From positions 29,202 through 93,201 of the IMG/VR virus record IMGVR_UViG_3300042891_001130: DNA of 64,000 nucleotides. One strand, given 5' to 3'. Position numbers and translations under genes: made by a program. Each line of letters opens with the position of its first letter. Position 1 is the first letter of the stretch. Below are positions 5,806-56,500 of this stretch, in pieces. The notes under the pieces are model-generated. The model did not search any database. It was given only the letters and a program-made list of their open reading frames with translations, and was not told where the DNA came from. Source of the stretch: a virus.

Positions 5806-7581
5806 TTATCTCTTTATTATGTAATGAATTGGAATGCCTCCGGCAGCAGATGTAACTCCTGTCAAATTAGGCAAATTAAAATTAGCACCAGACCCACCAT
5901 AGGTATATCCAATTACTGTGAATAATTTTGAATCTGTAATAATATTTTTCGATGATCCATTGCAAATATACCAATCATTTTGCATTAATGTTGTTAAAGT
6001 TGATGTACCGTATGCTGTTATCATTCCAGTTTGAAATATCTGAGCATATACATCTGAAAGAAAATCAGATTTACTAATTTTGTTTAATTGACCAGATGCA
6101 ATAGTGGATGTATCAACTACAAGAATCGTTTGAGTAGCGGTAGTAGATGTAGTTAAAACTTGTCCAGTAATTAATTGTGAAGTCGCTGTTGTTACTAAAT
6201 TCACATTGCTAGTTCCGTTAAATGAAACAGGCGAGGATGTTTGAACTTGTCCGGAGATAGAAAAATTTCGCCCAACTTCAAGTTGTGAAGAAGTAGTTAC
6301 CGCCCCGTAAATAGTAATTGGCGAGGAAGGACTTCCAATTTTAGAAACAAATATCTGTCTAAATGCTTTAATTGGAGATCCTAGATCATATGAATCGTTT
6401 GCCGCCGGTTCAATAATTACTCCAGAACCCACAGCGGCTCCAACGACCACCTTTCCAGTTAATGTACTGATCCCACTTACTCTTAAATTTTCATTTATAT
6501 TGACACTTTTAGCAAAGGAAGAAAGTCCGCTAACACTTAATGCCAATGATGTTGTAGTAAGATTTAATGTATTTGAAAATCTTCCAGAACCTAATACGTC
6601 AAACGTTGACTGAGGATCAGGATTGTTAACCCCAACCGTATTTAAAGATCCAACAAATTTAATATAAGACTTATTGGTTATTCCTACTGTAAAGTTAGAC
6701 GTTTGATTTGTGTATTCTACTTTGCCGCCAGCATTCGAAAAAACATTAATCTGTTCACCAGAATCAGCGTTTCTAATTTGTATTCCTGCTGAAGATTCTA
6801 CTCTAAATGTTCCCGTATGCGTTTGAGGGGTTAATAAAGATTTGTTTTTTAATACTTCAGTTGCCCTTATTGACAATGTCGGAGAAATATATAAAGAAGT
6901 AGCACTTTCTGCCACACCGTTATATCTTGCCGGTATTCTTCTAGTTAAATTTGTTCCAGGTTTTATAGTAGAAAAACCATCAATAACAGTTCTAGGTGTA
7001 AATTCATTGTATGCTAAAATTTCAACAACCTTGCCATTAATCCAATTTAATATTACAGGATAAGTTACATTGGGATCAATATTACTCTGTAGCCTAACTG
7101 TTTCAGAACCAGACTTTAGTTCGCCTGCTTCTATATTTGGCCCAACTGTGATCCAACTACTTTGATTTCTAATCTTTACTTGATACGATGAAGTATCAAC
7201 CCAAAGATCTCCAACTTTTACGTTTTGACTGTAACTTAAACTTGGATCTTGAGCCTGCTGAAACACTCCATTAGTAGGTTGCCATCTATTGCTTGTATTC
7301 GATCCGTTATTGACTCGCAACACACTTCTTTCGGGATTACTTGTATCATACCATAACTGGCCTTTTATAGAATTAATTGGCGGATTAGGTCCGGCAAAAT
7401 TTTCTAACAATTTAAGAAAATTTTGCGAAATATCTTGTCCGTAATTAGTATAACCCGAACCAACAAGATCTAAACTTGTACTGTAATTATTTTTTCCACT
7501 GCCAACAGAAGTACCAAGAACTTCAATAACTTCAGTATTATTAGGATCTGAAAAAGTTAAAGTAAAAATATATGATGACAT
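5806..7581 (-). CDS. Tail fibre protein with C-terminal tail-collar domain
   Basis: 591 residues. The N-terminus carries the shared module (YGQDISQNFLKLLENFAG, GQLWYDT, GDLWVDT). A long beta-rich shaft follows with fibre-type repeats such as LRVSGISTLTGKVVVG and NFSISGQVQTSSPVSF. The last ~80 residues are a phage tail-collar domain: DWYICNGSS, then IGYTYGGSGANFNLPNLTG, ending HYIIKR. Tail-collar domains terminate short/long tail fibres and often contact receptor. Order N-module, shaft, collar suggests a trimeric fibre attached to the baseplate by the N-module. The collar assignment is firm, the attachment role inferred. Confidence 0.82.
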   Translation of the reverse strand: MSSYIFTLTFSDPNNTEVIEVLGTSVGSGKNNYSTSLDLVGSGYTNYGQDISQNFLKLLENFAGPNPPINSIKGQLWYDTSNPERSVLRVNNGSNTSNRWQPTNGVFQQAQDPSLSYSQNVKVGDLWVDTSSYQVKIRNQSSWITVGPNIEAGELKSGSETVRLQSNIDPNVTYPVILNWINGKVVEILAYNEFTPRTVIDGFSTIKPGTNLTRRIPARYNGVAESATSLYISPTLSIRATEVLKNKSLLTPQTHTGTFRVESSAGIQIRNADSGEQINVFSNAGGKVEYTNQTSNFTVGITNKSYIKFVGSLNTVGVNNPDPQSTFDVLGSGRFSNTLNLTTTSLALSVSGLSSFAKSVNINENLRVSGISTLTGKVVVGAAVGSGVIIEPAANDSYDLGSPIKAFRQIFVSKIGSPSSPITIYGAVTTSSQLEVGRNFSISGQVQTSSPVSFNGTSNVNLVTTATSQLITGQVLTTSTTATQTILVVDTSTIASGQLNKISKSDFLSDVYAQIFQTGMITAYGTSTLTTLMQNDWYICNGSSKNIITDSKLFTVIGYTYGGSGANFNLPNLTGVTSAAGGIPIHYIIKR

Positions 7582-7584
7582 ATT

Positions 7585-8205
7585 TTAAGTTCCAGTACTC
7601 AAACTTTGAATTCTAATTGTATAATCAATTTGAATCATTCTGTTTAAAGATTTTTGAACAGGATGGAAAATTACATGAGTTAACAAATCTCCAGTATTCG
7701 GACCGTCTGGGTTAAATGCCCTTAACCCTAATTCGTCAAAAACAAATGGACTATCTAAATTAGTTTCATTGTCAAATGCAGACTGACCACTAGGTTCTCC
7801 AAAATCTAATAAACAACTTATTAAAATATCTGTGTAAACAGTGCCTTCTATGTGCCTAGTTTCCATGAAATTTCTTGCAGGATCTAAAGAATAACTGCTC
7901 TTAGAATCTACATTTTTATAATAGGTTTGATTATATAAAGTTGCACCTCTACCAATGGAATTTGGAGTTAGATAAGTAATAACGCCATTTGTTACTCTAG
8001 TCCCTCCGTTACCAAAAACCATTTCGGAAATGATTCCTCGTCCTTGATTAGAAATACTTTGAGCAAGTGCAATAGAAAAATTTTCATAATGAATTGCATT
8101 TCGTTTGTTAATAAAAATTTCTCCAGTACTAGGATCAAATATTTTTATATGACCTTGAATACTAAACGCACCGGTCTCATGTTTTAAATCTTGTTTGTTA
8201 TTCAT
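7585..8205 (-). CDS. Probable virion/tail structural protein (206 aa)
   Basis: 206 residues; resembles small structural proteins found downstream of the giant tail gene in marine T4-like phages, though I cannot name a domain. Visible features are an initial GAFSIQGHIKIFDPSTGE strand-rich segment, a NAIHYENFSIALAQSISNQG helix, a central FGNGGTRV and a C-terminal IQIDYTIRIQSLS. Similar segments occur in phage baseplate-fibre connector proteins. A sequence ATAAATA (minus strand, plus positions 8211-8217) lies just before the ATG with no obvious Shine-Dalgarno. Gene position between the nitroreductase-like gene and the fibre paralogues argues for a tail role. Confidence 0.68.
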   Translation of the reverse strand: MNNKQDLKHETGAFSIQGHIKIFDPSTGEIFINKRNAIHYENFSIALAQSISNQGRGIISEMVFGNGGTRVTNGVITYLTPNSIGRGATLYNQTYYKNVDSKSSYSLDPARNFMETRHIEGTVYTDILISCLLDFGEPSGQSAFDNETNLDSPFVFDELGLRAFNPDGPNTGDLLTHVIFHPVQKSLNRMIQIDYTIRIQSLSTGT

Positions 8206-8227
8206 AATGGTATTTATCCATATAATT

Positions 8228-8905
8228 TTATCGAATTTCTACAATAGTTTCATTACTAGGTTTTAATTTTCTAATTTTATCTGTTAAGTGTTGAGGAATA
8301 TTATAATTATCGTATCCAACTATTTTATTTTCATGGTATACTGCTTTTAATAAACATGGATTAGAGACATCACTATGATCTTGCATGTATCCCACACCCA
8401 ATGCAACTAAAGCATATTCGTCTGTATAACCTAAAGCATTGGCTACATTTTTTGAATCAAAACAAATAGAAAATCCTGTATCTAACCCAAGATCTTCAGC
8501 AATTGTCATTACTACGCCTGCACCAATTCCAGATTCTAAAAATGCCTTTTGTATTCTTTTTTCAAATCTATATTTTTGAATTGCCCAATTTTCTTCAGTT
8601 CCGTCAACTTCCTTATATCTAGTTACCCACATAAAAAGATATTGTGCAAGTAGTTGCCCGTTAAAATATTTAACAACACCGGGTCCTAATAATTTATTAT
8701 TTTCATCAGCCCAAGCATAGTTATCGTAAATATTTTTTTTAATATCATAAGAATTTGGACCAAAAATGACACATTTTTGTTCGTATCCGCATTGTTTACT
8801 AGGAACTCGATATAAGTTTTCAATAATAGTATCAATTTTTTCTTTTTCTACTACTCTTGTATAATCCCACCATCTTGCGGTAATTCTATTTTCTAAGTAT
8901 GTCAT
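8228..8905 (-). CDS. Nitroreductase-like protein
   Basis: 225 residues matching the layout of the nitroreductase (FMN-dependent oxidoreductase) superfamily: an N-terminal ARWWDYTRVV followed by a helix and VPSKQCGYEQKCVIFGP (like the family's pS..nQpw segment, about residues 34-50), then GIGAGVVMTIAEDLGLDTGF (about 126-145), and LVALGVGY near 167-173, where the family has a conserved glycine-rich strand. Such enzymes reduce flavin, nitro or enone substrates with NAD(P)H. FMN-contacting arginines are not clearly conserved, so the protein may be non-enzymatic. It is embedded in the tail operon between the giant gene and a structural gene, suggesting a virion or assembly role. Fold call moderate, activity unknown. 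Confidence 0.7.
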   Translation of the reverse strand: MTYLENRITARWWDYTRVVEKEKIDTIIENLYRVPSKQCGYEQKCVIFGPNSYDIKKNIYDNYAWADENNKLLGPGVVKYFNGQLLAQYLFMWVTRYKEVDGTEENWAIQKYRFEKRIQKAFLESGIGAGVVMTIAEDLGLDTGFSICFDSKNVANALGYTDEYALVALGVGYMQDHSDVSNPCLLKAVYHENKIVGYDNYNIPQHLTDKIRKLKPSNETIVEIR

Positions 8906-8925: not shown

Positions 8926-11900
8926 TTAATTTGAATTTCCGTAATACCATTTATCAGGAATTTCTGTAGAATGTCGCCTTATGAACTTAGATTGAATTGA
9001 CTCGGATTCCATCAACGATGTTGATGTATTCCAATAATTTCCTATTTTTTGTTCTATTTCAACTTTAGTTCTTAAAGTAAAATCTTCAACATGAATATTT
9101 AATTCAAAATTACCAGTTGATTCATTAAATTTAACAGTAAATTCTGGATCAAGTGTTCTTAAACTTGTAGACGTAGAATCGTATGCTAAATTGTAATCAT
9201 GTACTTTAGACGCAGTTTTTCTCAACAGTCTACCACCAAATTTAACAGAAATCTGATCGTTAAGGTACTGCTCTAAACCATTTGTTGTACTTAATATAAT
9301 ACCATCTCCACCAGACTGATACATAGTTCCGGTGTTAATAACAAATGAACTTGAACTAATAGCAATCGTGTACGTTCCATTAGAATTTGTAACAGTATTA
9401 ACAACATATGTTCCAGTGGCTTCAGATGTTATATGATACTGTTTCTTAATGGTATCAGTATAAGGAATAAATTGTTGAGGGCTTTGATCAAAGACTTTTG
9501 TTCCAACATCGGATATTTCTGCAGGAGAAGTACCCATAGTACCCCTTCTAAGTCCGCTTAGTACATTACTATCTTTAGAGAAAAATTCAATTCTTTCGCT
9601 ATCGACGAATATAACTCCCGGAATATTTCTGTGGAAATTAGGAGGTATTAAACTTGAAGAATCTGTTACATGAATTTCAGTATCAGTTAACTTTAATTCT
9701 TTAGTTAATCTTGTACCGTAAAAATTAGATAATCTAGAATATGTGGTTCTATTAAAAATGTCATTAAATATTTTATATCCATAAACTAAATTAGATCGTA
9801 ATGTTGTCGAAACATATGAAATAGTAATTTCGTCATCAGATTGAATACTAATAGAATTGTTTAGTGAAACTGTTCTAAAATCATCCAAAATAGTAAAATC
9901 ATTGTTAGCAATCAAATATTGTTTATTCAATGCTACCCAAACATATCTACTATCAGATACCGGCAATCCTAAAGTAAATTTTAGACCAGCATCGCCTTTA
10001 AATCTTTCCGTCCTCAACATCATTCCATCATAATCAGCAAATGATATAACTTTAACTGAACTAGAAGGTTGAATTGGAGTTGTAAAAATTATAGTGTTAT
10101 TATTAATTACATAATCAAAATTAACTAATGATTCAATTGCTAAAATTGCGCCGTTAGATGCTATTCCAGATGATATTGTCACTGTACCAGTAACACTATT
10201 AATAGAATAATCAAAACCAGGAGCAAGCAATCGACCGTTTAAATAGACTTTAATATTTGAATTAGTATATGTTCCCGGAGGACGGCTTGTATTGTCAATA
10301 TTGAAAGTTGTTGTCGATCCATCCAATTTATAGTAATTAACATCAGGAGGATTTAAACGCTTTCTGCCTTTAACTAAAGTAGTCGAATCTGGTTCATATA
10401 CTTCAACAAATACTTGAGCACTTAACGGCTCAGTTGTTCCTAATAAATTTGTGACCAAAATACTAGAAGTAGGTGCTGCAATACTAAATTGTTCTTCAAA
10501 TATTTGACTAAATTTTCCAAAATTAGATTTTAAAAACCAAGCCTGGATTGTTCGTTTACTGTCTGCAATATTAGTTACCCTAACTGCCGCCCTCTTATTT
10601 TTTGGTCCCGCAGGTATTAGTTCGTAATTGCTAGAATTAACTTCACGACCGTCTATTGTCACATATACACTTCTTATATCATCAATAAACGCAGAACTAA
10701 TCAATGTCGCAGTACTCTGTCCATATTCAGTTAATAACGTAACCGAGTCTGCAACATATTCTCCGCCAATAGTTAATAAATTGTAACCTACTTTACCGTT
10801 AACATCTTGAGGCGCAATATACAATTCATCATTCATAACGTAAAATTGAGAAGAGGTTGTAAAGAAATACTCATCAACAACTCCACTGCTAGGAGGTTCA
10901 TATATTCTATCTAACATCTTTCCTTCGAAATTTACAGTTATATAAATTGATTCTTCTAAAGGTACTCCCAATTTAAACGATGATATAGCGTTTGCACTAA
11001 TAGGGACTATACCGGACATTGCAATCGGCGACGATTTATTTTCTTGAGTAAACACATTGATAGAAACAGATTCATATGTATTACCTTTAACATGCTCTTC
11101 CGGTGATTGACCAATATTTTGAGATATTAATCCACTACCGTCAATAACTAAATCACCAGGATTAATGCCAAGGGCTCCTACAAAATTTCCAGAACCGTTC
11201 CACGACCCTGCACTTATTTCAGTATCTAATTCATCAAAACTAAAGTTATCTTTCCAAAATTCTACAATTGGATATCCATACAAATCAACTTTTATTTTGT
11301 TTGTTACATTTGAATTTAGATTAAAAATTTCAACATTATATGTGTTATTTGAAGTAGTTGAAACATTATAATAACTTCCATACAATAGATCGTTTACATA
11401 TATGGTAACCGTAGAAACACTGTTAAATAAAACATTTGTGTCATAGGCCACTGTTGAAGTATTAGATACTAAATTTTCAAAAGAATAAATGTTGTAAAGA
11501 GAATTTACATTAACTTCATTAAATACCGCCGGAACAGTTACCTTTGCAGTTACACCTAAAGTTTTTACTGTTGATGTTGTCAATAATGTAATAGCGTGTG
11601 TTCCGGTTCCTACAGCAGTAAATCTATCTGTTCCAGAATTAGTAACAATATATTTTCCGTCAAATCCTAAAATAGTTCCGTCGTCAACTCCGGATATTTC
11701 TATAATAGAACCACTAGTTATTTTTCCATTAAAATCTTCGGTAGTAAAAAATACTATATTTCCTTGAGTAGTTAAGGAATCAGATATAATTCGTTTTAAT
11801 CTGTATTCAGAATTTGCAATAGAAACTGTTTTAGTAGAAGTATTAACAGCAGATACTACTGCATCACTTCTTATATGAGATGTAGAAGTATTTGTTAATA

Positions 11901-14900
11901 AAATTTTCTGACCAATACTTACACCTTCAACAGAATCTAGATAAAGAACTGTTCCAGAATAATTTATATTTTTAACTAATTTAGCCGAAGTATAATAGTT
12001 AACTAAATTTGACCACGCTGAATCGTTATCAAAATAACCGTAATTCCATGGTAACGAATAACCAAAATTTAACCCTTGAATTACTGTATTTTTATATTCT
12101 GCTCCCGACATCAATAGCGGGATTTCTTTACCTACCATATCGTCCGTTGGTTGATAAAATTTGTTAATTCTATCAACAGCATGATAAATTGATATATTTT
12201 TCTCGTAGGTAATTTTAAATTTTTGTCCTAATTTTGGAATATAATTTAAAAATACAAACTCACAATATTGACTTGTATAATTATTAATATTTTCTGTAAA
12301 ATATTCAATTGTATAATCAGTTGAAAAAATAATTTTACTATCCAATAAAGGAACAATTTTTGATTTATTCGGTTGCGCTAACCATGTTAATCTAAATCTA
12401 TTATTTCCAGTACACTCAAAAGTTTCAGTAATTCTAGAACTATCTATTTCTTCATTAACTCCAGTTCTATCAAATTTAATGCCTAATATATTTTTTCTAA
12501 TATAATCATTGCCTAATTCTACCGAAACCTTTGCAGGTTTTACAACATTTGGGCCGCCACCGACTATAGTAACAGTAGGTGGTCGAACATATCCGCTTCC
12601 AGGATTTGAAACTAAAACTTTAAATACTCCGCCATTTCGAATATATGCTTCTGCAGTTGCTCCACTGCCTGTATCACCGAGTGCAGGAGTTATAACTACC
12701 GTAGGATTCTGTGTGTATCCTTCTCCGTTGTCAGCAACTAAGACATTCTTAACATAATATTTGTAATTGTCAGCCCACCATTTCCAAGGATACTCAGTAA
12801 TCTCACTACTTGTCAATCCAACTAATTCATAACTGTTTGAAACAGTATTAAAATATGCAGGCAAATCAAAATCTGTAGATACACTATTTGAAGTTTCATT
12901 TGTTAATGAGTATTTTGATGTGTAAGATCTAATTTTTGTTCTATATGGTTTTACTTCTCTAATATAATCTTCGAAATAGTTTTCGTTGTCTAACCTATAA
13001 ACTGATTTTTGATCTAATTCGCCAACTTGATTGTTAACAGAAATAAAACTAGTTTTAAATACCCAATCTAAAAGTTTTTGTTCAGTAAATGCATATCGAA
13101 CTGCTTTAAAGAAGAATAAATTCCAATTTATTTTTAGATTACCTACAAAAATATCGTCTTTTAGGGCATATAAAATATGATTTAATTCTTGATCAGGAAT
13201 TTGATCATATAAAGTTTCTTCCAATGTAGCAGCGTCATAGGAATAATTAGATTCTTTAAAATTCCAAATTTCATCAGAAATTTGAATTGTTCCATTTTGG
13301 CTATAGACAATTTTATATTGTAGGGCAAAATCTCCTATTTGATCACTATCTAATTTTTCTAGAATTATGTATCGACCATCACCTACATTATTGATTTTTA
13401 CATAATCACCCGTGACAGTAGAAGACGCTATCGGCAATTCTGTTGGATCTTTTAATACTACTGCGTAGTCTTTATAACCATTGTAATTTTCGTCTACCCA
13501 ATCTACATAATTCCAATACAACGGAGTATTATAAGATTGTGTCTGAATTCTTGTCCAATTTTTAAATTCATAATTGAAAAGATGTTTAGTCCACCTGTTT
13601 CCGTATTCTGAATTTGTTCGAACAATCGTCGTGTGCCCTCTTATAATAATTTTTTCTGAACTATCTAAATTTCCTAGATAATTTTTTCCAGGGTTAGAAA
13701 TTATTACATTAATAACTCTTCCACTTCCGTCAATTTCAGATAATAGTTCGGCACCTTCTCCAGAACTAGAAAGTATTTCAATTTTTGGAGGAATGCTATA
13801 CCCAAAACCAGGATTTATAATTTCAACACTAACTACTTTTCCATTATATGTACTATAGATTAGTTCTGCTTGTGAGAATTTAGAAATATCAATTTGATCT
13901 AATTCTTCTAAATCATCAACAATAAAATCATACTCTCTAGATAAAATATCTGGTATTTCTTCTTTCTTATTTAGGTTAGTAAAATCATAAAACCCAGTAA
14001 TTTTATTTTTTATTAGTACAGAATTAGTAAACTCAACAAGATTTCTTAACGCCAATAATCTATCTTTAAACATTGATTGACGAGGTCTTATTTCTATGCC
14101 ATACCTATTTCTTACTGATAAATTTAAATCAGGAACTGTTTGACCTAAATCATCGTGACCTAATAAACTATCAAATAACTTTTTAGTTAACGTGGTAGTT
14201 GGGACACTGTCTTTATTTCCTTCTTCTAATAGCAACCATTCTGTATGTTTAGGAATATTATTATTAATTTCATCAAATGAAATGTTTGAATTAATTCTAT
14301 CGCCGACTAAAATTGGTTGAACATTCGCAAACGAAATAGCATTTTGAGACAATATCGATGCAAATCTTATTCCATTTGCAGCAGGATCTAAAATCAAATT
14401 AGCAACTTGTATAGCACTGATTCTTCTATTACGAGAATTAGGTACAGTAACTTTATTTTTTACCCAGAAATAATAAACATTCTCAAAAGAATTAGTAACA
14501 TTGTTGAACACCTGTTTAACAGACATTACTGAATTATCTGGATATTTTGGTTGTCCGCTAATTCCTTTTGTTAATCCTTCATTAGTATCTGCTTGCGCAG
14601 CCCATTCTGACGGCAATAAATCGGATTTAACCCATTCGTAAATATCTATACTTGATCCAGGAAAAATTTTACCCCAATTATTTTTTCTAAATATTTCATC
14701 GCCCTGTTCATACCATAGATATTTAACAGTACTTAGATCCCACCATAAATCACCTATATGGTCATCAATCCAACTAGAATTTGAATCTACAGAATTTAAT
14801 GCAGTTCCTATCGAATACATTGCAGGATCAAACGTAGATTTGTATTTTAACTCTTGTTCTGCTAATCCTATAATTTTTCCTTTTACAGGATCAAAAATAT

Positions 14901-17900
14901 CTAGATACTCAATTATTTCTTCTTTAAAAGAATCTATTAATTTAATACTTTTGATTTTTTGAGAATCTACTAGATTTGGTTGATTTCTTAAAACTTTCCA
15001 ACTGTTGATTGAAGTATCTAATTTGTCAAATTTAAAGAACGTAGAATCGTCTAGAGAAGTAGCATTTTTAATCCACGGTGCGCCTACAAGAATAAAATCA
15101 TTTAGAGAAGACACAGAAAAACCAAATCTACTTCCTTCTAAAATTGAAGAATCGCTTAATTCTTCAGATTGAATAAAATATCCATCTAAGTTGTTGAAAA
15201 CATAAACAGTTCCAGAATCGTCAACAGGTGAAATAAATTCTGTGCTTCCTTTATCAAATGTTGTTTTTCCTACATTTGAATTTTCATCAAATACATAAGT
15301 TGATGATCTATTTCTTCCAAGAGCGCCTACTGTTAAAATATCTTCATTCTTGTTTAGAGAAATACTTACTCCAAATTTTAAATCTGTAGTAAACGATGGA
15401 TTTTCTATAATTTGATTTAAGACGTAAGTTCCAGTAGATGTTAAATTTGTAGCAGAATAAACTGCAATATTTCCAAATGTACCATCACTATTTTTTATGT
15501 CAGGAGACGAAATTAATAAGAATTTTCCTGACGATGAAACAAAAATATCAGAACCAAATGTTCGATTTTCTTCAAACGGAGAATATATAACTTGCTTTGA
15601 AACTAAATTTTTATTAAAAATTTCCACCAACCCTGTTTTACTACCGGTTGTAAATCCAGGTGCCGAAACTGCAATAAAATTTCCATTATCGCTTCCGGAT
15701 ATTTTTTCACCCCACTTACTGTATTGAGTAAGTATTACGGAAGAAGTTAAAGATATACCAGCGGTATGTTGAACTAAACTTATTGCGTTAGAATCAGTAG
15801 AAGTAGTTAAATGATATGCAAACACAAATCCAGTTGATGTATTGTTAACTCCATCGCCAGGTGCTCCAATTAATACTGTCGTAGCAGTTGATTTGTTAAC
15901 TTTATCAACATATATTGTATTTCCGAATCTTAAATAATTTGCTTTAGCAGATGTGTTAGAGTAAGAGCCTGGAGCAAGCAATATTGCTACAGTTTCTTCC
16001 TCTTCTACTGTAGATTTTTCTCTACTAATTTTTACTAATCCTTCAGAAATAAATCCCTTAGAACTTCCCGTGCCCGTACTAAAAGAAATTGTTCCAGTGT
16101 TGTTAGTAATAATATTAGATGCTTTAGGTGCTCCAGCAAAAATTAATTCTTTACCATCATCATAATTTAATGTATATCCAAATTCAGAATTTGTCGATGT
16201 ACTGCAATAAATTTTGTTGTTTGAATTTAAAATGTATTCGAACAACTTATCTAATATATTCTGTTTTTGGTTGTAAACCCATATTCTTCCAACACTATTA
16301 GCACTACCGCTGTTCCAAGATGGAGAAGAAACTAAAACAACTTGAGAATTGTCTCTAGCATAAATTGAATACCCTAATTCTTGTCCAAAAGGATTACCCA
16401 AAGAATTAAAATAGGTTCCTGTACTATAATTTTTAACTTTTTCATAGACAGACCACTTTTGATCAACTTTATCTACCCAAATTTTTTCTCCGTTTTCAAA
16501 TTTATATAATTCTTTAAACTCTGAAACTTTTAAAAAATCTTCAAATCTAACTGATTGAAATTTAAAAATACTACCTAGTTCAACAAGATCGTCGTCTACA
16601 ATCGAAGATAGAGTAGAATCAACTGTAAATTGATTTAATTTTGGTACTGCTTTAACATTATAGATACCGTTTACTTGATCATTAAAATTAACAACGGAAA
16701 CAATATCTCCAATTTTTAAATCATGAAATAGATCACAAGAAAATGTGATATCAATTCCAGGTGAACTTACAAACACTCCTGTAATTTTTGCTGTTTGTTT
16801 AGAATACCTGTAAACGTCCCAATTTCCATTGTCTAAAAATCCTATCCATATTGTATCTTTTTCATTTAATAAATTGTTGTTTGCAATATCAAGAATACTG
16901 TTAGTGTTGTATGCTGTTACATTTACATCATCGGGTCTAACATAACCTGCTGAAGGAAATTGAAATAAACTTTCGTCTTGCACTTCATTTTTACTAATCT
17001 TAAATACGTCATTTATTTCAAAATTTGTAGGCTTAATTAAAATATCTTCTGATAGAATATAATTAATTAAGTTATTTTTTTCTGCAGGAACTTCATTGCT
17101 AAACTTAACAATATAAGGATTTTCTAAAGAATTTCCTTCATTTAATTTAAATTCTACTTCTTGGAATGTTTCGTATCCACCATAATGACCGACTCTAAAT
17201 GCCCACTCTTCAGTAAAATTAATACTTCCTTTTCTAGCATAAGATCCAACTTTTACAATTTTATCTAATGCGTTTTTGGTTCCTTTTTCTTTAATGTAAC
17301 CTTGATAAAATTTATACTGAGTTGTTGGGTTAGTAAAAATGTTATTTAAATAAGGTCTCTCAGAGTAACCTATTAGGTGTTGCGCTAATTGTTGTTGAGA
17401 GATATCAAAATTATCAATATCTAAACTGTAAAAATCTTCAAACTGATTAATCTTATAAGAAAAATTAGGCAATAAATCTGGAGAAGGTTGTTCTCTTAAT
17501 TTCGACCATTCATTAAAATTAAAAAATTCACTTCCCACAATTTTAATGTTTGATTGATAATAAACTCCATTATACCTAACAATTGAACCCGGCAAGTAGG
17601 AAACAAATGGTTTCCAATCGCCAACAAAAACTTCATCATAAACAAATCCCGGACTAAAGAAATCACCGTTCCAATTTGCTGTTCTAAATCCAGAAATTTT
17701 TAATCTTCTTTGTCTGTAGCCGGTGTCTAAATCATAAATTATATCATTGAATAATGTCCTATTATCAAAAATCATTGCATGTTCTTTTTGTACAGTATTC
17801 AATAATGCAAAAAACAATCCTTCTTCAGTGTTAACAGTTTCGATGACACAAATACCATCATCTCTAGATAACTTAATATTTTCTTTTGGAAAACTTTTTC

Positions 17901-20900
17901 CATCTGCTTTTAATAAGTTATATTCATAAGAATTATAATTGATATCATCAACTATAGAATTCTTATTTCCAAATTTTAAAGATTTTGCAAAAGGACTAAT
18001 TGTTATGAGATTATTATTACTCCAATTTTGAGTTGTCCAAAATAAAAATTCTTTCGCGGAAAATTTCCAATCTAATATCTCAGTTAGGTCATTATCATAC
18101 TGATCAAATATAAAACCATTTGATTCTAACCAACGACTGTAACCTAAAATAACATTATAAACTTCTTGAATTGTAGAATACATTGTTCCATACGGAATAC
18201 GAACAGACCTTGATTCAAATAAAGATGGGACTAAAACAGTAACTCCGCCTTTTACTGGTAATTTTGATATTGGTTGGAATAATGTAGGATCAAAATTTGA
18301 AGAAGCATTATGACCAACTTTTACTCTATAGTATGAATTATTGTATCTAACCAGTTGACCTGATTTATAATACCTAGTGGTATTAACGTTGGCTGTAGTT
18401 GTATCAGAAAAAGTTACACTAGAATTTGCATTACCAGTAATGCTAGACCATTCAGTAAACGGTTCTGCAATCCCTCCGACCGTAACTGATTTTGAATTTC
18501 CAGATATAATAGCAGGAAAAATTTCAAAATATGGATTTGATTTATCGTATCCTTTAATTAAAAATTTTCCATTGTATTTTTGAATTACAATACCAGAAAT
18601 TCTAAATGATTGAATTGTATTACTTTTATTTAAAATAAGGTCATAATTTTCAGGAGGTAAAATGGCGCCCTGTGACATAGAAGAAACATCAACAGTGTCC
18701 ATAATCAATTGAATTTTGTTTTTACTTGTAAATCCTCCCAATTTATGAAATAGATTAAAGTCTAAGAAAGACAAATCATTTTTTAAAGTGTTTAAATAAT
18801 TGAGATTTTTCAATCTACCATATTCTATAATTAAATTTCCAAATCCAGAACTTTGGTTATTTTCATTATCTAAAATTAACTTATTTGGGTTCAAATATAA
18901 ATCATCATTGTATAAAATTTGATTTAATTCATTAATAGTTGTCCTACTAACATCAAACAATTTAGAAGTATATGAACAAGGATCAAGTAAGGCCGCTACA
19001 ATGTTTAATGCAAAAGGCCAAAGACTGCTTCTTCTCCATGCAACTTCTGCAGGACTGAAATCTCCAAATTTCCAATCTTGTTGTTTTTCAAATATAGAAG
19101 ATTCTGATACTAAAAATGTATCAGGAGATTTTAAATTTCCAAATTCATCTACCGGTATAATAGATAACAATCCAGATCTTGCATAATTTAAGTTATATCT
19201 ATTTTCTCCTCGAATGTATCCATTACTCAAGTCTGTCCAAAGCAATACATTTGAAGATGTATACGGTGCTAATCCGTAAGTAGTTGTCCACCAGTTTGGT
19301 CTTTCATTAAAACCCAACATTTCCCACGGTGTTAAATGAGGCTTATCTGTATCATAAAAATACTGGTATATTCCTCGCCATGAACCGCTTACATTTTTTG
19401 AAAATAAAGTATCAACAGTTGTTGAATAGTTAAATGTAAAAGGATTTGTTTCATCAAAGGTTGTATTTGACGAAAAATTAACATTAAATTGATTTGTCCA
19501 ATTTATAAATTCTTTTATTAAAATATTATTAGAGTCGTCGATTGTATATCTGTTGATTCTGAAAGCACCAGAAATGACAGAATTCATATCAAACAATTTA
19601 GAATTGTAACTTACTTTGATATTGTTATAAATTCTTTTTTCAAATTCTAAAATAATTTGATCCCTGTAATCACCATATGCCTTTGTTAAACTTCCATCGT
19701 GTCCAAGTATCATCGTCACTGGACCTTGTACATAAGAAGTATCTTCGACTATTGCAGGTTTAAATTTTGGATACAACCCCAATTTGCTAGGAGTCGGTGG
19801 CACAAAAGATCCTGTGGTGTCGTTATAAAAATAAATTTTAATTTTATCTCCAGTAGATAAATTTGATAATATTTCTACTGTCGAGTCTAACGAATTTATT
19901 TGATAATCTTGACCGTTAATTAGTAAACTATCATTTACATACACAGAAAGTGCATTAAAACTTAACTTTGTATTGTCAAAATTATCTCTAATAGGGTAAA
20001 TTTTATTAACTACGATACCAACCGTAAATTCAGTAACAATTTTGTCTTCACCATAAGGTACCATATCGGACCTGTAAAATAAAGAATCTATATTGTTGTT
20101 TCTGTTAATATACTTCAGTGCAATATCTAATGCTTCTGCAGGAGAAAACTGACTTTCAATCTTTCCTAATGTGTCAAACAAATTTAATTTATATTGGTTA
20201 TATAAGTACCCAACAAATCTTAAGGAATCTAAAACATTATGATCTTTTTTTGCTAAAAATAATTTTGAATATACTAGCGGAGTAGAATTAATTATAAGCC
20301 TTGTACCAAATTTTGAATAATTGCTTAAATCTCTTAAATTGCTTTTTCCCGGAAATTGTCCTTGAAAATTTGTAATTTTTGGTATCATCGATCCTACATG
20401 ATCTGATAATTCACTTAATGTAAAACTAGAAATTGGACCATTTAATGGATTGTTAGTTAAGTTTAAAACAGGTTCATAAAATCCGTTGTTGTTTGGAGAA
20501 TTATTAGAAAATATATTAAAATAAATGGCATCATTTTCTTTTAGCGGCTGTGAAAATGTGACCGTTGCTGTTTGATTAAAAGAAACTGTAGATTGAACAA
20601 TATTATTGTTAACATAAGAAATTACTTGAGTAGATGTATCAAAAGGATAATCTAATGATTTTAATTCTATTGTTGTTGTATTTGTTTGAACCGTTTGATT
20701 TTCAACAATTGGAATTTTATATCCTTCCGCCGAAGACCAAACATTAACTAAAAAGTTACCTAATTTTAAATATCCTAATGCAAGACTTTTTTGAGAAGTT
20801 ACGTTATCAATAGTAACATTTATTGTATCAGTAGTGAAATAGTTTTTAAAAAGATAGTTTCCTATTCCCGAATTATTATTCTTTAAAGGAAATCCTAAAA

Positions 20901-22647
20901 TTGAATCAGAAATTCCACTACCAATTTCGTAACCAAAAATCTTTGTTCCCGAAAAATCATTAGTTATTTCTTGTTTAGTAAAACTAATACCATTTTTATC
21001 AAACAAATCAAACAACGGAGCATCATTTATAGAGGCATGTTGCTGACCAAATTTCCAGTTTTTATCGTCAGCACTGAAATACCATTCAGTTCCTCCATAA
21101 ATATTTCCAAGATTAATTGCTACAGAGTCTAAGTCATTAGGGTTATAAAATTCTACTAATTTTATCACAGTAGAATCTAAAAACGGATCATAATTTATAG
21201 ATTTAATTAATTCATCGCCTATTTCTTTAATCCAAGTCGACTGGCTTAGATTGAAATACCATCTAGATTCTGATTGAGAATTTCCATTTTTAATATAAAC
21301 TAAATCTCTATCTTTTGTTTTATAAAATTCAACTAATCTTAATTTTAGAACTGAGTTGTCATTGAATTGTTGAACTCTATAAATAATTCCTCTTTTGGTT
21401 AAATCAGCAGCAGCATTATAAACCACTAATTGATTTTCTAATAAGGGTACACCGTCTATTGAAGAACTAACAACTCCATTTAAAAGTGAAGTTAAATTTG
21501 TAGTTGCTGTATCAATTAAGTTAATTTGAATTCTATTTTTAAATTCAATGCTGTAAATTTTTCCTTTTACATTTTCATTTAAATCATTGTTGAAAATAAC
21601 TTTTTGTCCGCCTTCAACTAACACACCGTCTACATAATAACCGTATGTTCCATCAATTTGATCAAAAGCGTTAGTTGTTATTGTATCTATTAAATCAACA
21701 TTGCCAATTCCCTTAACACCATAATTGTATAGTTTTAAATTTGCTTTAAATTCTATAATTGGTCTCTTTGCTTTACTTTGAACAGGATAAATTGGTGATT
21801 TATTATTAATCAGAGCAACAGTCTTAATTACATCTTCATGAAACCATCGATTATATCTAGTCCAAGGATTTAAATCATTGCTAGATTTATTAATTGTGAT
21901 ATATTCGGGTGTTCCGGGAAGTTTTCTGTCGCCGTCAAAGGGCAACGAATCAAACGGTGCATTATCAAATTTTTCGTTAAAAGTTTCTGCAAAATTCTTA
22001 TTAATTTCTAATTTGTCAAAATCAACTAAAACAATAGAATCTCCTACCCCTTCAACGATATATTCTCTACCAACGCTTATTTCAAATCCATTATAAGTTT
22101 CATTTTTACTAAATGTTAATTTCATACCATTGGATAATTTGTATCCATAACTAGTAGTATAATTTTGATTTCCTAAAATAGATGGCAAAACATTTGAAGA
22201 CAAATTGTCAATTAGTATTGATTCAGGACCCGACGGTAACCAGTAATAAAAAGAATAGTTGATTAGTTTATCCCAGTCAATTAATGGATCGTATGCACTA
22301 AACTCATTTTTAAAAAGTTTATTATGATCTTGTGTATTTCCACCTTGATTTTTTATTTCATTTAATAAATCATCATATGCAATAGCATCTTTTACATTTG
22401 ACAGAGAATCTTTAATAATTAAAGCCGGCTCTAACTGATAATTTCTTCTTAATGGGGTATCTTTTTCTAAATAAAGATCTAAAATTGTATTATAATTAGG
22501 TGTTAATTTTGAACCAATAAATGCATTAATTCTTTCAAGTTCGGGCTCTTGAATAAATTGATCAATGGTGCTAGATAAAAATTTAGAATTTTTTTCTGAT
22601 CTAATATATTCAGGAAGAAGATTTACGGTTTTTCTTTTTTCTGCCAT
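8926..22647 (-). CDS. Giant tail/baseplate structural protein (4573 aa)
   Basis: A single uninterrupted 13.7-kb frame, one fifth of the window. It follows gp6 in the operon (one base apart), where T4 has gp7, and resembles the very long virion proteins of T4-like marine phages. The start MAEKRKTVNLLPEYIRS is conserved-looking. Visible content: about 2088-2525, seven FG-GAP-like repeats (for example FGFSVSSLNDFILVGAPW), consistent with a seven-bladed beta-propeller; about 2940-3365, four copies of a NPGxGYxxPPxVxI motif; the last ~1000 residues hold repeated beta domains (VYLNGRLLAPGFDYSIN) and a SERIEFFSKDSNVLSGLRRGT segment seen in other phage structural proteins. No protease, membrane or signal sequence was noticed. 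Probably a huge baseplate or fibre protein; exact role inferred from position. Confidence 0.85.
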   Translation of the reverse strand: MAEKRKTVNLLPEYIRSEKNSKFLSSTIDQFIQEPELERINAFIGSKLTPNYNTILDLYLEKDTPLRRNYQLEPALIIKDSLSNVKDAIAYDDLLNEIKNQGGNTQDHNKLFKNEFSAYDPLIDWDKLINYSFYYWLPSGPESILIDNLSSNVLPSILGNQNYTTSYGYKLSNGMKLTFSKNETYNGFEISVGREYIVEGVGDSIVLVDFDKLEINKNFAETFNEKFDNAPFDSLPFDGDRKLPGTPEYITINKSSNDLNPWTRYNRWFHEDVIKTVALINNKSPIYPVQSKAKRPIIEFKANLKLYNYGVKGIGNVDLIDTITTNAFDQIDGTYGYYVDGVLVEGGQKVIFNNDLNENVKGKIYSIEFKNRIQINLIDTATTNLTSLLNGVVSSSIDGVPLLENQLVVYNAAADLTKRGIIYRVQQFNDNSVLKLRLVEFYKTKDRDLVYIKNGNSQSESRWYFNLSQSTWIKEIGDELIKSINYDPFLDSTVIKLVEFYNPNDLDSVAINLGNIYGGTEWYFSADDKNWKFGQQHASINDAPLFDLFDKNGISFTKQEITNDFSGTKIFGYEIGSGISDSILGFPLKNNNSGIGNYLFKNYFTTDTINVTIDNVTSQKSLALGYLKLGNFLVNVWSSAEGYKIPIVENQTVQTNTTTIELKSLDYPFDTSTQVISYVNNNIVQSTVSFNQTATVTFSQPLKENDAIYFNIFSNNSPNNNGFYEPVLNLTNNPLNGPISSFTLSELSDHVGSMIPKITNFQGQFPGKSNLRDLSNYSKFGTRLIINSTPLVYSKLFLAKKDHNVLDSLRFVGYLYNQYKLNLFDTLGKIESQFSPAEALDIALKYINRNNNIDSLFYRSDMVPYGEDKIVTEFTVGIVVNKIYPIRDNFDNTKLSFNALSVYVNDSLLINGQDYQINSLDSTVEILSNLSTGDKIKIYFYNDTTGSFVPPTPSKLGLYPKFKPAIVEDTSYVQGPVTMILGHDGSLTKAYGDYRDQIILEFEKRIYNNIKVSYNSKLFDMNSVISGAFRINRYTIDDSNNILIKEFINWTNQFNVNFSSNTTFDETNPFTFNYSTTVDTLFSKNVSGSWRGIYQYFYDTDKPHLTPWEMLGFNERPNWWTTTYGLAPYTSSNVLLWTDLSNGYIRGENRYNLNYARSGLLSIIPVDEFGNLKSPDTFLVSESSIFEKQQDWKFGDFSPAEVAWRRSSLWPFALNIVAALLDPCSYTSKLFDVSRTTINELNQILYNDDLYLNPNKLILDNENNQSSGFGNLIIEYGRLKNLNYLNTLKNDLSFLDFNLFHKLGGFTSKNKIQLIMDTVDVSSMSQGAILPPENYDLILNKSNTIQSFRISGIVIQKYNGKFLIKGYDKSNPYFEIFPAIISGNSKSVTVGGIAEPFTEWSSITGNANSSVTFSDTTTANVNTTRYYKSGQLVRYNNSYYRVKVGHNASSNFDPTLFQPISKLPVKGGVTVLVPSLFESRSVRIPYGTMYSTIQEVYNVILGYSRWLESNGFIFDQYDNDLTEILDWKFSAKEFLFWTTQNWSNNNLITISPFAKSLKFGNKNSIVDDINYNSYEYNLLKADGKSFPKENIKLSRDDGICVIETVNTEEGLFFALLNTVQKEHAMIFDNRTLFNDIIYDLDTGYRQRRLKISGFRTANWNGDFFSPGFVYDEVFVGDWKPFVSYLPGSIVRYNGVYYQSNIKIVGSEFFNFNEWSKLREQPSPDLLPNFSYKINQFEDFYSLDIDNFDISQQQLAQHLIGYSERPYLNNIFTNPTTQYKFYQGYIKEKGTKNALDKIVKVGSYARKGSINFTEEWAFRVGHYGGYETFQEVEFKLNEGNSLENPYIVKFSNEVPAEKNNLINYILSEDILIKPTNFEINDVFKISKNEVQDESLFQFPSAGYVRPDDVNVTAYNTNSILDIANNNLLNEKDTIWIGFLDNGNWDVYRYSKQTAKITGVFVSSPGIDITFSCDLFHDLKIGDIVSVVNFNDQVNGIYNVKAVPKLNQFTVDSTLSSIVDDDLVELGSIFKFQSVRFEDFLKVSEFKELYKFENGEKIWVDKVDQKWSVYEKVKNYSTGTYFNSLGNPFGQELGYSIYARDNSQVVLVSSPSWNSGSANSVGRIWVYNQKQNILDKLFEYILNSNNKIYCSTSTNSEFGYTLNYDDGKELIFAGAPKASNIITNNTGTISFSTGTGSSKGFISEGLVKISREKSTVEEEETVAILLAPGSYSNTSAKANYLRFGNTIYVDKVNKSTATTVLIGAPGDGVNNTSTGFVFAYHLTTSTDSNAISLVQHTAGISLTSSVILTQYSKWGEKISGSDNGNFIAVSAPGFTTGSKTGLVEIFNKNLVSKQVIYSPFEENRTFGSDIFVSSSGKFLLISSPDIKNSDGTFGNIAVYSATNLTSTGTYVLNQIIENPSFTTDLKFGVSISLNKNEDILTVGALGRNRSSTYVFDENSNVGKTTFDKGSTEFISPVDDSGTVYVFNNLDGYFIQSEELSDSSILEGSRFGFSVSSLNDFILVGAPWIKNATSLDDSTFFKFDKLDTSINSWKVLRNQPNLVDSQKIKSIKLIDSFKEEIIEYLDIFDPVKGKIIGLAEQELKYKSTFDPAMYSIGTALNSVDSNSSWIDDHIGDLWWDLSTVKYLWYEQGDEIFRKNNWGKIFPGSSIDIYEWVKSDLLPSEWAAQADTNEGLTKGISGQPKYPDNSVMSVKQVFNNVTNSFENVYYFWVKNKVTVPNSRNRRISAIQVANLILDPAANGIRFASILSQNAISFANVQPILVGDRINSNISFDEINNNIPKHTEWLLLEEGNKDSVPTTTLTKKLFDSLLGHDDLGQTVPDLNLSVRNRYGIEIRPRQSMFKDRLLALRNLVEFTNSVLIKNKITGFYDFTNLNKKEEIPDILSREYDFIVDDLEELDQIDISKFSQAELIYSTYNGKVVSVEIINPGFGYSIPPKIEILSSSGEGAELLSEIDGSGRVINVIISNPGKNYLGNLDSSEKIIIRGHTTIVRTNSEYGNRWTKHLFNYEFKNWTRIQTQSYNTPLYWNYVDWVDENYNGYKDYAVVLKDPTELPIASSTVTGDYVKINNVGDGRYIILEKLDSDQIGDFALQYKIVYSQNGTIQISDEIWNFKESNYSYDAATLEETLYDQIPDQELNHILYALKDDIFVGNLKINWNLFFFKAVRYAFTEQKLLDWVFKTSFISVNNQVGELDQKSVYRLDNENYFEDYIREVKPYRTKIRSYTSKYSLTNETSNSVSTDFDLPAYFNTVSNSYELVGLTSSEITEYPWKWWADNYKYYVKNVLVADNGEGYTQNPTVVITPALGDTGSGATAEAYIRNGGVFKVLVSNPGSGYVRPPTVTIVGGGPNVVKPAKVSVELGNDYIRKNILGIKFDRTGVNEEIDSSRITETFECTGNNRFRLTWLAQPNKSKIVPLLDSKIIFSTDYTIEYFTENINNYTSQYCEFVFLNYIPKLGQKFKITYEKNISIYHAVDRINKFYQPTDDMVGKEIPLLMSGAEYKNTVIQGLNFGYSLPWNYGYFDNDSAWSNLVNYYTSAKLVKNINYSGTVLYLDSVEGVSIGQKILLTNTSTSHIRSDAVVSAVNTSTKTVSIANSEYRLKRIISDSLTTQGNIVFFTTEDFNGKITSGSIIEISGVDDGTILGFDGKYIVTNSGTDRFTAVGTGTHAITLLTTSTVKTLGVTAKVTVPAVFNEVNVNSLYNIYSFENLVSNTSTVAYDTNVLFNSVSTVTIYVNDLLYGSYYNVSTTSNNTYNVEIFNLNSNVTNKIKVDLYGYPIVEFWKDNFSFDELDTEISAGSWNGSGNFVGALGINPGDLVIDGSGLISQNIGQSPEEHVKGNTYESVSINVFTQENKSSPIAMSGIVPISANAISSFKLGVPLEESIYITVNFEGKMLDRIYEPPSSGVVDEYFFTTSSQFYVMNDELYIAPQDVNGKVGYNLLTIGGEYVADSVTLLTEYGQSTATLISSAFIDDIRSVYVTIDGREVNSSNYELIPAGPKNKRAAVRVTNIADSKRTIQAWFLKSNFGKFSQIFEEQFSIAAPTSSILVTNLLGTTEPLSAQVFVEVYEPDSTTLVKGRKRLNPPDVNYYKLDGSTTTFNIDNTSRPPGTYTNSNIKVYLNGRLLAPGFDYSINSVTGTVTISSGIASNGAILAIESLVNFDYVINNNTIIFTTPIQPSSSVKVISFADYDGMMLRTERFKGDAGLKFTLGLPVSDSRYVWVALNKQYLIANNDFTILDDFRTVSLNNSISIQSDDEITISYVSTTLRSNLVYGYKIFNDIFNRTTYSRLSNFYGTRLTKELKLTDTEIHVTDSSSLIPPNFHRNIPGVIFVDSERIEFFSKDSNVLSGLRRGTMGTSPAEISDVGTKVFDQSPQQFIPYTDTIKKQYHITSEATGTYVVNTVTNSNGTYTIAISSSSFVINTGTMYQSGGDGIILSTTNGLEQYLNDQISVKFGGRLLRKTASKVHDYNLAYDSTSTSLRTLDPEFTVKFNESTGNFELNIHVEDFTLRTKVEIEQKIGNYWNTSTSLMESESIQSKFIRRHSTEIPDKWYYGNSN

Positions 22648-38611: not shown

Positions 38612-38888
38612 ATTAGAAAAATATAAAAATTTATACTCTCAACTAATTTCAGAGTTTGCTACTTTACACAATTCTCACCAACTCTTTATAAGAACCAAAG
38701 GTAGAGATCCTGCTATGGTTTCTAGAAGGAGTTTAAGATCTATTGCAAAAATTGCTAATGAAATGAAAAGACAAGGTCAAAAAGTATCACAAGAATTTAT
38801 GGCAAACAAAAGATTAGAAAAAATTCGTCTTAGAGAAGAAAAAGCAACGAAAAAGACGAAAAAACATGACTTGGCTATATCAAAATAA
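38586..38888 (+). CDS. Small basic conserved-type protein (100 aa)
   Basis: Overlaps the 3' end of gp46 by 26 bases; the ATG at 38598 (MSNIELEKYKNLY) is an equally good start, and neither has a clear ribosome binding site. The protein is helical and strongly basic, with a central RTKGRDPAMVSRRSLRSIAK motif and a Lys/Arg-rich tail (RLREEKATKKTKKH). It resembles short proteins located after gp46 in marine T4-like phages. Nucleic-acid binding is a guess from charge. It overlaps the next gene by 23 bases. Confidence 0.72.
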   Translation: MILIMSNIELEKYKNLYSQLISEFATLHNSHQLFIRTKGRDPAMVSRRSLRSIAKIANEMKRQGQKVSQEFMANKRLEKIRLREEKATKKTKKHDLAISK

Positions 38889-53521: not shown

Positions 53522-56500
53522 ATGTCACTTACTAATGTATCAAATTATCCCGGAAATTATGTAATTAAGGCCCTAGACGGTTATGTATTAGTTTTTGTGC
53601 CGAATAGTAACATTATTTTACAATCTCCCAAAACTAGGGTGACGGGAGATCTGTTTGTTGATCAAAATGCCACAGTTGAAAGAGATTTAACTGTTAATAA
53701 TAACTCTATATTCGGTAACACTGATGCTGATACAATTAACCCTATTGCACAGTTTATTAATAACTTAATTCCTCAAGAAGAAGAAACTTACGATATTGGC
53801 TCCCAAGAAAATTATTGGAATAGGTTATATGTAGGAAGTTTTTTGACTTTAGGAACAGGTACTACTTACAGAAACACAATTACTAATACAGAAAACGTTT
53901 GGAATCCGTACTTACCTTCACCACAAGGACGACCATACGATCCAAATGATGTTTACGGTACAAAAGAACAACGAGAACAAGGTGCATTATATATTGCTGG
54001 CGGTGTTGGTATTGAAAAAGATTTAAACGTCGGCGGATACATTTATGGTAGAATCGAAACTGCAAACACAACAACTTTCGTTGATTATACTGCAACAAAT
54101 ATAGATCAAGAACTAAAATTAATTTTCATTAACGAAGATCCTTCAAATCAAAGTGCAGTTTTTATTGATGAAATAGGAACTGAAGACGGATTAAATTATA
54201 ATCCTTTCTTAGGAAGAATTACCACAGATAGAATAATCGTTGCTGAAACAGATCAAGCGACTAGTACTTTAACAGGTGCTTTGCAAGTTGTTGGCGGAGC
54301 TGGAATACAAAAAAATGTATTTGTCGGAGAAAATATTAATGTTGCTCAAGATGCTTATGTTGGCGGAAATGTAACAGCGACAAATGTATTACCTCAAGTA
54401 GATTCTACTGGTACAATTGGTCAAGAAAATAGGCAGTGGACAGACGGATTCATTGAAAATTTATACACTAAAATTATTAGATCCACGACAGGTAGTATAC
54501 AAATTATACCAAAAGATCCTTTAACTGAGATTATTGGTGATATTAGAGTTCGTGGTACTAATCCAGTTGGTACTGCACCAGTAGTTACAAATACATTGTA
54601 TGTCACTGTTGACGGAAATGATACCAATGACGGTCGTGCGCAAGATTCTAGCCGAGCATGTCGTACAATTGGAGGTGCATTAAACAGTCCGTATTATCAA
54701 CCAGGTACACAGATTTTAGTCAGCGCCGGGCGTTATCTTGAAGATAATCCATTAAGATTAAAACCTTATACAAGTATTCGTGGTTCTGACATTAGAACTA
54801 CATTTATTGAACCAATTAATAAAACACAAGATTTATTCCATGTAGATAGTGGATGTTATCTAAACTACATGACATTTTTAAATGGTCGAAGTGGATTATT
54901 AGAAGGCCCATATGCTCCTGGATTTAATAGAGGAGCCTATGCGACAGCGTTTCCTCCATTAGAAGGTGATAAACGAATTGATTTATTCCATTCTCCTTAT
55001 GTACAAAACTGTACAAATCAGAGCGGACCTTGGTTGAAAGATGGAACATTATATCAACCAAATCAAACAGTTCAAATTCCTGAAGCAGTTGGCACTGGTA
55101 CTTGGGTTAAGAACACCACAACTTTATTAGTTACAGTTACTACAGGAACTATTACTGCTGGAATGAGTATAAATTCAGGACAGCAAAATCCTGGATTCTT
55201 CAATGCTAGAACTTTAATGCTAGCAAATAAACCTTTCTTGCAAGAACAAGTTATTAATTGGATCTCTGATCAAATTACCACCAATATAGGAAATACATCA
55301 AGTATTTGGTGGAATACTGCAACGAATACATCATTTACTTATAGCCAAGAAAAGTGCAGAAGAGATGTTGGAATATTAGTTGAAAATGTTGCGTATGATG
55401 CAGCGTTCGGTGGAAACCAAAAATCAGTTGAAAGTGGCTTGGCATATTACAATGGAGTTGTAAGTTTAATCGCAGGTCAAGAAGCACAAACTACTGCTGC
55501 AATTAATTATCTTGGCACTTTAACACAACAAATAATTGTTAATTCTACTGCAACAGTTATAGGCAGTAACAATTATTCTCAAGTCATTAACTGGGTTTTA
55601 ACTGGTGGAGAAATAGCAAGTCAGTCAATAGATAATTTGTTTACTATTATAACAGATATTATTAATGACGGGCCTGATGCAAAACCAGATTTATATCAAA
55701 GTACTGGACCTGATTCTGCATTTGTTAGCGCAGAAATATTAATGCAGGCTAACAGAAAGTTCATGCAAGAAGAAACTATCAATTATATTAATAATAACTT
55801 AATTGGTGCAAGTTTCCCTTATAGTGAAATAAAATGCCGCAGAGACACTGGATTAATTATTGATTCTATAGCGTTTGATATGCTGTATCCAACTGCAAAT
55901 TGGAGTCAATCAACATTTGCTGGATTGCAATATTGGAAGCAACAAGATTTAACACCAACGATTGTAGATGAAATCAATACAACTACGCTGGCTATTTCTT
56001 ACTTGAAAGAATTAGCAGGAAAAATTATTTTAAATATTACACCTGCAGATGATCTAATTCCTAGATATCAAACACTTGTTCCTCAGGTAACAACTACATA
56101 TCAAGCAGCAACACTTAATGAAGTATCTATTATTAATAGTAGATTTGATGAAATTTTAGAAATTTTAAATGGTAAAACTACAGGTTGGACTGATATAATA
56201 GAATCAAATGGTAAACCTAGTAATTTCTTATCAGTACAAAATGCTACAAATAATTTAAGATCAAACATTGATTACATGGCCAATGAAGTTACTGCATACG
56301 TAGATTATGTAACTTCAGGAACAGGCTTTGTCTATAACACAGCAACTTGCCAGCGAGACGTTGGATATATTATTGATGCAGTTGCTTTTGATTTATTACA
56401 CGGTGGTAATAGACAAAGTATTCAAAATGGACTTTATTATTATGGATTTAGTGTAACAACATCATCTGTTGAAGCACAGCAATCACAAACTATAGAAGCA

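Follow-up and report, generated by a model that had tools for sequence, protein, structure and literature searches.

A gene whose product looks like a redox enzyme lies among the tail genes of the virus studied here, which raises the question of what such an enzyme would do in that place: serve in the virion, lend its fold to a structural part, travel as a metabolic passenger, or carry out chemistry for the phage. The window, that is, the whole stretch of DNA analysed, comprises 64 kb out of a virus record of 93,201 bases, and the gene at 8228-8905 is a single open reading frame on the (-) strand, with an ATG start, GAAGGAA directly 5' of it and a product of 225 aa. A first-pass annotation had called the gene nitroreductase-like and pointed to the segments GIGAGVVMTIAEDLGLDTGF and ALGVGY, both of which are found in the translation. 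The naming holds, since the match to the Pfam family PF00881 exceeds chance (E=3.8e-9, with 37.4 bits where the cut-off is 23.5) and covers profile positions 2-167 of 167. Membership of the product in the nitroreductase superfamily is thus confirmed.

Beyond the superfamily, the familiar resources place the protein poorly. The NCBIfam search gave no match and the PHROGs search no family, while tblastn found nothing at 1e-5 in the phage records and nothing up to E 10 in plasmids, and a scan of genome contigs, which is sensitive to close relatives only, returned zero relatives. One tblastn match in an Aeromonas phage (E 0.4) was discarded because it runs antisense to annotated genes. Relatives were gathered by a degenerate pattern scan followed by alignment-guided scans, and a profile run over 140 loci gave 30 distinct rows, which include a host-type sequence (L093), two pieces of a split gene (L094) and the window gene. 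The resulting clade counts 28 genes with that of the window and is marked by the motifs PSK, N-x-Q-x-x-A and G-x-x-x-G. The window protein matches two clade profiles at E 3.9e-63 and 2.7e-60, values to be read with the window row being part of both; independently of the profiles, its best pairwise match is the L100 gene (BLASTP, 33.9% identity, E 3.7e-18). In the tree the phage clade stands apart from 4 canonical outgroups with support of 100/99, and the window gene sits inside it on a long branch without a firm partner. When seven other clade proteins were searched against PHROGs, five had no match and two, both of them fusions, had weak ones only, those to tail fibres lying over the extension. 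Two members also occur in an isolate, Pelagibacter phage Mosig EXVC030M (QOI69057.1 and QOI69046.1, profile E 5.1e-19 and 1.6e-14). These sequence comparisons show the window gene to belong to a divergent phage nitroreductase clade. As a separate observation, L094 11531-12581 carries a nitroreductase fusion split over two frames, in which a CxRD domain (described below) stands between both nitroreductase parts.

The same results bear on the idea that the gene is a generic metabolic passenger of host origin, for instance a nitroreductase of NfsB type with a detoxifying role, which ended up in the tail operon by chance. In favour of it, NfsB-like sequences turn up in 9 phage records, mostly unannotated, and a nitroreductase-domain protein is named among the auxiliary metabolic genes of hydrothermal-mat viruses in a passage of PMC10159854. 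However, the 225-aa protein does not belong to the NfsB-type oxygen-insensitive family: NCBIfam is negative, identity to NfsB is 18-19%, and the tree places NfsB on the outgroup side of the split noted above. The empty plasmid search and the contig scan, the latter for close relatives, argue in the same direction, and we regard a host-derived passenger as scarcely probable.

Whether the protein is still an enzyme depends on its fold and its cofactor site. From the single sequence, AlphaFold2 reached a pLDDT of 41.6 for the 225 aa; with an alignment of relatives it gave a pLDDT of 73.9 and a pTM of 0.74. That alignment has 25 rows; among the 30 distinct profile rows it leaves out the host-type L093, the window duplicate L001, the near-copies L103 and L129 and both pieces of the split L094 gene, and in the model residues 178-216 have a pLDDT <50. 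Foldseek of the model against the PDB found 7jh4 as best match (E=6.1e-10) and 197 chains passing 0.001, the top 50 rows being nitroreductase or flavin-oxidoreductase-type entries throughout; VIA-align gave Z values from 14.1 to 16.4 across the best 50 entries, with 3of4 at Z 16.4 and an rmsd of 5.0 over 174 residues. Among viral predicted structures only three match at E<=0.001, namely A0A1B1IWW4, A0A7S6LFJ4 and A0A6J5TAD2, the last named as an NfnB nitroreductase of an uncultured Caudovirales phage, and their identity to the window protein is 13-20%. A profile of 25 clade relatives searched against the PDB agrees with this, with a best match of 4e-11 and nitroreductase-superfamily-type names for all 36 of the 36 matches with E<=0.1 (nitroreductase, NADH oxidase or dehydrogenase, flavin oxidoreductase, iodotyrosine deiodinase, BluB-like, albonoursin synthase). 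The nitroreductase fold claimed by the first-pass annotation is accordingly supported by Pfam, by the PDB profile search and by AlphaFold2 with Foldseek and VIA-align, and the fold prediction which it had proposed as a check returns this fold once the alignment is supplied.

Compared with the canonical PF00881 enzymes (3of4, 3gbh, 7jh4, NfsB), the window protein has in common the whole Pfam profile, the fold and the FMN-phosphate positions, but identity is about 20% or less and its C-terminal part is longer and modelled with low confidence. Residues R7, T9 and R11 align, by alignment only, with the N-terminal FMN-phosphate positions of the canonical enzymes; in NfsB we take the phosphate residues to be R10, S12, K14 and K205/R207. 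K215 is a candidate for the C-terminal ligand, matched by eye to K205/R207 and lying in the low-confidence part of the model. Two features of NfsB are replaced in the window protein, namely the Asn that follows the PS motif and the Glu-Gly loop. Across the clade, P35, N82, Q84, A87, G126, G140, G144 and G172 are kept in all 25 of 25 rows, the R7 position is R/K in 20 of them and the K215 position K/R in 21; T is found at T9 in 5/25 and a basic residue (R, K or H) at R11 in no more than 9/25, so that the FMN site varies across the clade. With all four candidate ligands kept, the window enzyme would rank among the more canonical of these proteins. The protein is thus predicted to bind FMN, and it may well form a homodimer as such enzymes do by inference from the fold family. 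Among tailoring enzymes of this fold, albonoursin synthase/cyclodipeptide oxidase (8uc3) matches the model with a VIA Z of 15.0 and an rmsd of 3.1 over 161 residues and the clade profile weakly (E 0.015); it offers a precedent for peptide chemistry, whereas the same reaction or its partner subunit finds no sequence support in the window protein.

The first-pass annotation had also suggested a fold reused structurally, which we take as an FMN-free relic of a nitroreductase serving as a building block of the tail. The substituted Asn and Glu-Gly loop fit such a relic, and in some clade members two of the three phosphate ligands near the N-terminus are missing. Yet R7, T9, R11 and K215 of the window protein are all retained where canonical ligands align, the N82-x-Q84 pair is found in every clade row, and the radical-SAM company of the clade, described below, suggests enzymes. 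Because the FMN-phosphate ligands are apparently retained, the suggestion is weakened, and we consider a structural relic very unlikely. Of what that annotation proposed, the fold has stood, the structural reuse has lost ground, and a virion flavoprotein is a possible but unlikely account.

The gene is set in a tail operon whose members, listed in their order on the (-) strand, are as follows.

26686-29010, (-) strand: baseplate hub/lysozyme, from PHROGs.
26235-26672, (-) strand: baseplate wedge subunit, from PHROGs.
22649-26188, (-) strand: baseplate wedge subunit, from PHROGs.
8926..22647, (-) strand: virion structural protein of 4573 aa, upstream neighbour and border of the slot (phrog_10938; homologues in Atu_ph07 and Phosso).
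8228..8905, (-) strand: nitroreductase-superfamily gene, 225 aa, predicted FMN-binding, of a phage-specific clade (open reading frame, PF00881, clade profile, AlphaFold2, Foldseek, VIA-align).
7585..8205, (-) strand: phrog_11259 protein with function not assigned, downstream neighbour and other border of the slot (E=3.1e-67).
5806..7581, (-) strand: Collar-domain fibre-like protein, next in the operon (PF07484, E=2e-11).

Hub/lysozyme, wedge and virion structural genes with the Collar domain on one strand substantiate the tail operon setting described earlier, and the gaps, put then at about 20 bases, measure 20 nt on the side of the 4573-aa gene (8926-22647) and 22 nt on that of 7585-8205. 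The product of the latter has tblastn matches in 60 phage records, some annotated as structural, and among the 40 matches listed it is 41-55% identical to proteins of jumbo phages (Phosso, Atu_ph07, RaK2 etc.).

Conservation of the gene's position in relatives had been proposed as a further check. We surveyed the slot, defined as the interval between the 4573-aa gene and the homologue of 7585-8205, taking the 416 relatives of the downstream neighbour and keeping the best 80. By motif, collagen-like genes are found in 46/80 loci and S8-like genes in 28/80, 24 of these also with collagen-like ones; Pfam on slot examples finds Collagen in 1/1 and S8/YHYH in 2/2. The slot is empty within 200 nt in 13/80 loci, 5/80 stop short of the large gene, and the remaining 11/80 hold small or unnamed ORFs or have an interval, uncertain or longer, for which no ORF is listed. 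A nitroreductase occupies the slot in one locus of the 80, which must be taken as the same virus, since its identity to the window is 99.995% over 18,905 bases and 100% over 18,205; PF00881 likewise occurs in 1/80 of the slot-relative records, namely that same-virus record. The position is thus not conserved, and across the 80 loci the gene does not behave as a conserved structural component of the virion. In Phosso the slot is empty and in Atu_ph07 it holds a GIY-YIG/NUMOD3 gene of homing-endonuclease type, so that, with collagen-like and S8 genes elsewhere, the slot admits both fibre-like and non-structural cargo. The slot between the two tail-region genes is shown by this survey to be hypervariable. 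Among its occupants are the large S8 subtilase and YHYH proteins at L067 6919-9897 and L080 7352-9964, of a kind that many relatives carry in this slot side by side with collagen-like proteins.

It is at this point that a virion flavoprotein has to be weighed, an enzyme on the tail tip which would be docked to a fibre or to the 4573-aa protein and act on the host surface or the tail at adsorption. The place between tail genes with gaps of 20-22 nt speaks for it, as do the collagen-like proteins and S8 proteases, presumably exposed, that mostly fill the slot in relatives, and the domain homologous to tail-fibre repeats in many other clade genes (see below). However, neither a fibre domain nor a docking domain is present in the window protein, its position recurs in that single locus, the Atu_ph07 slot is taken by a homing-endonuclease-type gene, and most relatives of the enzyme are located in enzyme islands; moreover, a scan of ten proteins encoded close to the nitroreductase in L124, L129, L133 and L136 gave a PHROG tail or virion match for only 3/10. 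The usual content of the slot and the shared domain leave this account with an appreciable minority share of the probability, and we judge it unlikely rather than remote; the same grade goes to the broader notion that some enzyme rides on the virion. For an assembly factor, also proposed in the first-pass annotation, we found no positive evidence.

What the relatives are accompanied by points elsewhere. Radical-SAM genes occur in 22/22 clade records at E<=1e-3, 21/22 being over the Pfam cut-off, and at 1e-8 they occur in 21/22 clade records against 3/42 slot-relative records, this background being 42 of the 79 other slot-relative records and mostly longer ones. On the gene maps, most clade genes are surrounded by genes of radical-SAM/SPASM type and by hydroxylase and glycosyltransferase genes, with SPASM naming done by eye; looser cases, among the matches listed, have the nearest radical SAM at about 18 kb (L124) and about 7 kb (L137). 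In Mosig the island that harbours both clade members consists of MoaA-like, Asp/Arg-hydroxylase, aminotransferase and methyltransferase genes and has tail and baseplate genes nearby: beyond the second member a VrlC gene starts at about 4 kb and the baseplate gp8 gene lies about 10 kb away. In contrast, the window gene is on its own, with a tail-region gene on either side, and outside the radical-SAM island of its virus; the nearest radical-SAM-like genes in the window's own record (G000) are about 12.5 kb off and not island-type in look. A longer contig of the same virus (G001) has a radical-SAM island of its own at 0-20 kb.

We therefore favour, as the probable explanation, a functional FMN oxidoreductase which stems from the modification islands of phages and is carried as cargo in the variable slot of the tail operon. 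Counting against it are the place of the gene outside the island of its own virus, the long branch, the FMN site that varies across the clade and the low model confidence around K215. According to this proposal, the product would be a folded and probably catalytic member of the superfamily, whose clade relatives mostly cluster with radical-SAM enzymes, Asp/Arg-hydroxylase-type oxygenases and glycosyltransferases, while in the virus of the window the gene would be cargo outside the conserved tail machinery. It would probably be translated together with the late tail operon, so presumably at a late stage, and the enzyme might oxidise or reduce, by two electrons, some peptide or small molecule that the phage makes or modifies.

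Regarding the islands, the nitroreductase fusion of L110 is flanked by genes which match L142 (on G001, of the same virus) 15590-18813 and 18815-19573 with 52-74% identity, and in L142 the gap at that place is 1 nt; L142 15590-19573 and L110 6530-11298 form a syntenic island cassette. A simple transfer of the window gene from the island of the same virus is not claimed, as the tree does not pair the window gene with that of L110. Within the radical-SAM island of G001, L142 11168-12124 encodes a TctC-type tricarboxylate-binding receptor (PF03401, E=1.9e-29). Genes of this type are typical of Burkholderiales, and this one is a possible hint to the host.

The most surprising result is a phycobiliprotein-like module common to tail fibres and enzyme. 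An N-terminal domain of about 130 residues is fused to the nitroreductase in 12 of the 27 other clade genes. These fusions (IMG/VR loci L102, L107, L110, L129-L133, L140 and others) have the same nitroreductase domain as the window protein, with the PSK, N-x-Q-x-x-A and glycine motifs, whereas the window protein lacks the ~130-aa domain; the fusion of L133, for example, is at 7602-8549. The window has the module in a different gene, one of whose repeats is at 56627-57136.

53522..59158, (+) strand: tail-fibre protein of 1878 aa with five CxRD repeats, phycobiliprotein-like (phrog_5342 tail fibre, 5.6e-69; PF00502, E=4.5e-6).

A profile of the window tail-fibre repeats, run against the 140 loci, retrieves the fusions down to E 1.6e-7, and its only ten matches up to E 10 are all fusions. 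Comparing the profiles of the repeats and of the nitroreductase extensions by hhalign gives 96.7% and E=3.8e-10, and in a joint alignment of 11 rows the C, R and D of C-x-R-D are the sole invariant columns; the first alignment had taken four of the five window repeats, the later one all five. That the CxRD ORFs besides the tail fibre are all nitroreductase fusions carries a selection bias, since it was mostly by way of the nitroreductase that these loci had been gathered.

As to what the domain is, the tail fibre matches PF00502 with 27.2 bits against a cut-off of 22.2, while among the fusions L110 reaches 18.1 bits, below the cut-off, and L107, L106 and L133 have no match. Against the PDB, 48/50 matches of the joint alignment are phycobiliproteins or the derived smURFP (best 0.0047). 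The fusion domains alone give 32/34 phycobiliprotein-type matches, the best of those at 0.071 and the top overall a spindle-pole protein at 0.013; the tail repeats alone reach 6.3e-5, with phycobiliproteins making up most of the best 60 of 75 matches, the weak ones of which include PCNA entries and one encapsidation protein. Each of these signals is weak alone, yet they agree, and in sequence the CxRD domain resembles phycobiliproteins. In phycobiliproteins it is the CxRD that holds the bilin. With one tail-fibre repeat as query, tblastn found matches in 125 of 50,697 phage records, every one of them named as a Synechococcus, Cyanophage or Prochlorococcus phage; the cultured cyanophage S-MbCM7/ACG-2014h is an example of a phage with the repeat. 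Phycobilin lyases are common in T4-like cyanophages according to a passage of PMC10665884.

One may go further and suppose that the clade nitroreductases act jointly with CxRD modules, fused to them in many phages and here free-standing beside tail genes, with five modules in the tail fibre. A cofactor or a modified cysteine that CxRD holds would be the substrate of the flavoenzyme or its partner in a redox reaction, and tail fibres would bear a tetrapyrrole or an altered side chain installed by phage enzymes. We offer this as a long shot. A titles-level search of the literature on phage nitroreductase, radical SAM and phycobilisome or phycobiliprotein with tail fibre or structural protein found no such system, which at that level does not establish absence from print. 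Should the CxRD domain hold a cofactor or modification, phage tails would carry chemistry so far not looked for, as far as the literature was searched, and the cyanophage phycobilin lyases described in PMC10665884 might have an unsuspected target. In any case, an odd gene has turned into a testable system, in which a phage-specific flavoenzyme clade is tied to radical-SAM islands and a domain is common to enzyme and tail fibre.

A few further genes were noted along the way. In the window, 36010-36840 is a family-17 glycosyltransferase gene (PF04724) and 38866-39291 a SegE-type GIY-YIG endonuclease gene (PF19835). Outside it, on G000, L141 4402-5955 and 12123-12971 look by eye like a transglycosylase-like and a QueE-like radical-SAM gene; by Pfam the former has no match and the latter a radical-SAM match below threshold, and the pair possibly serves 7-deazaguanine modification of DNA.
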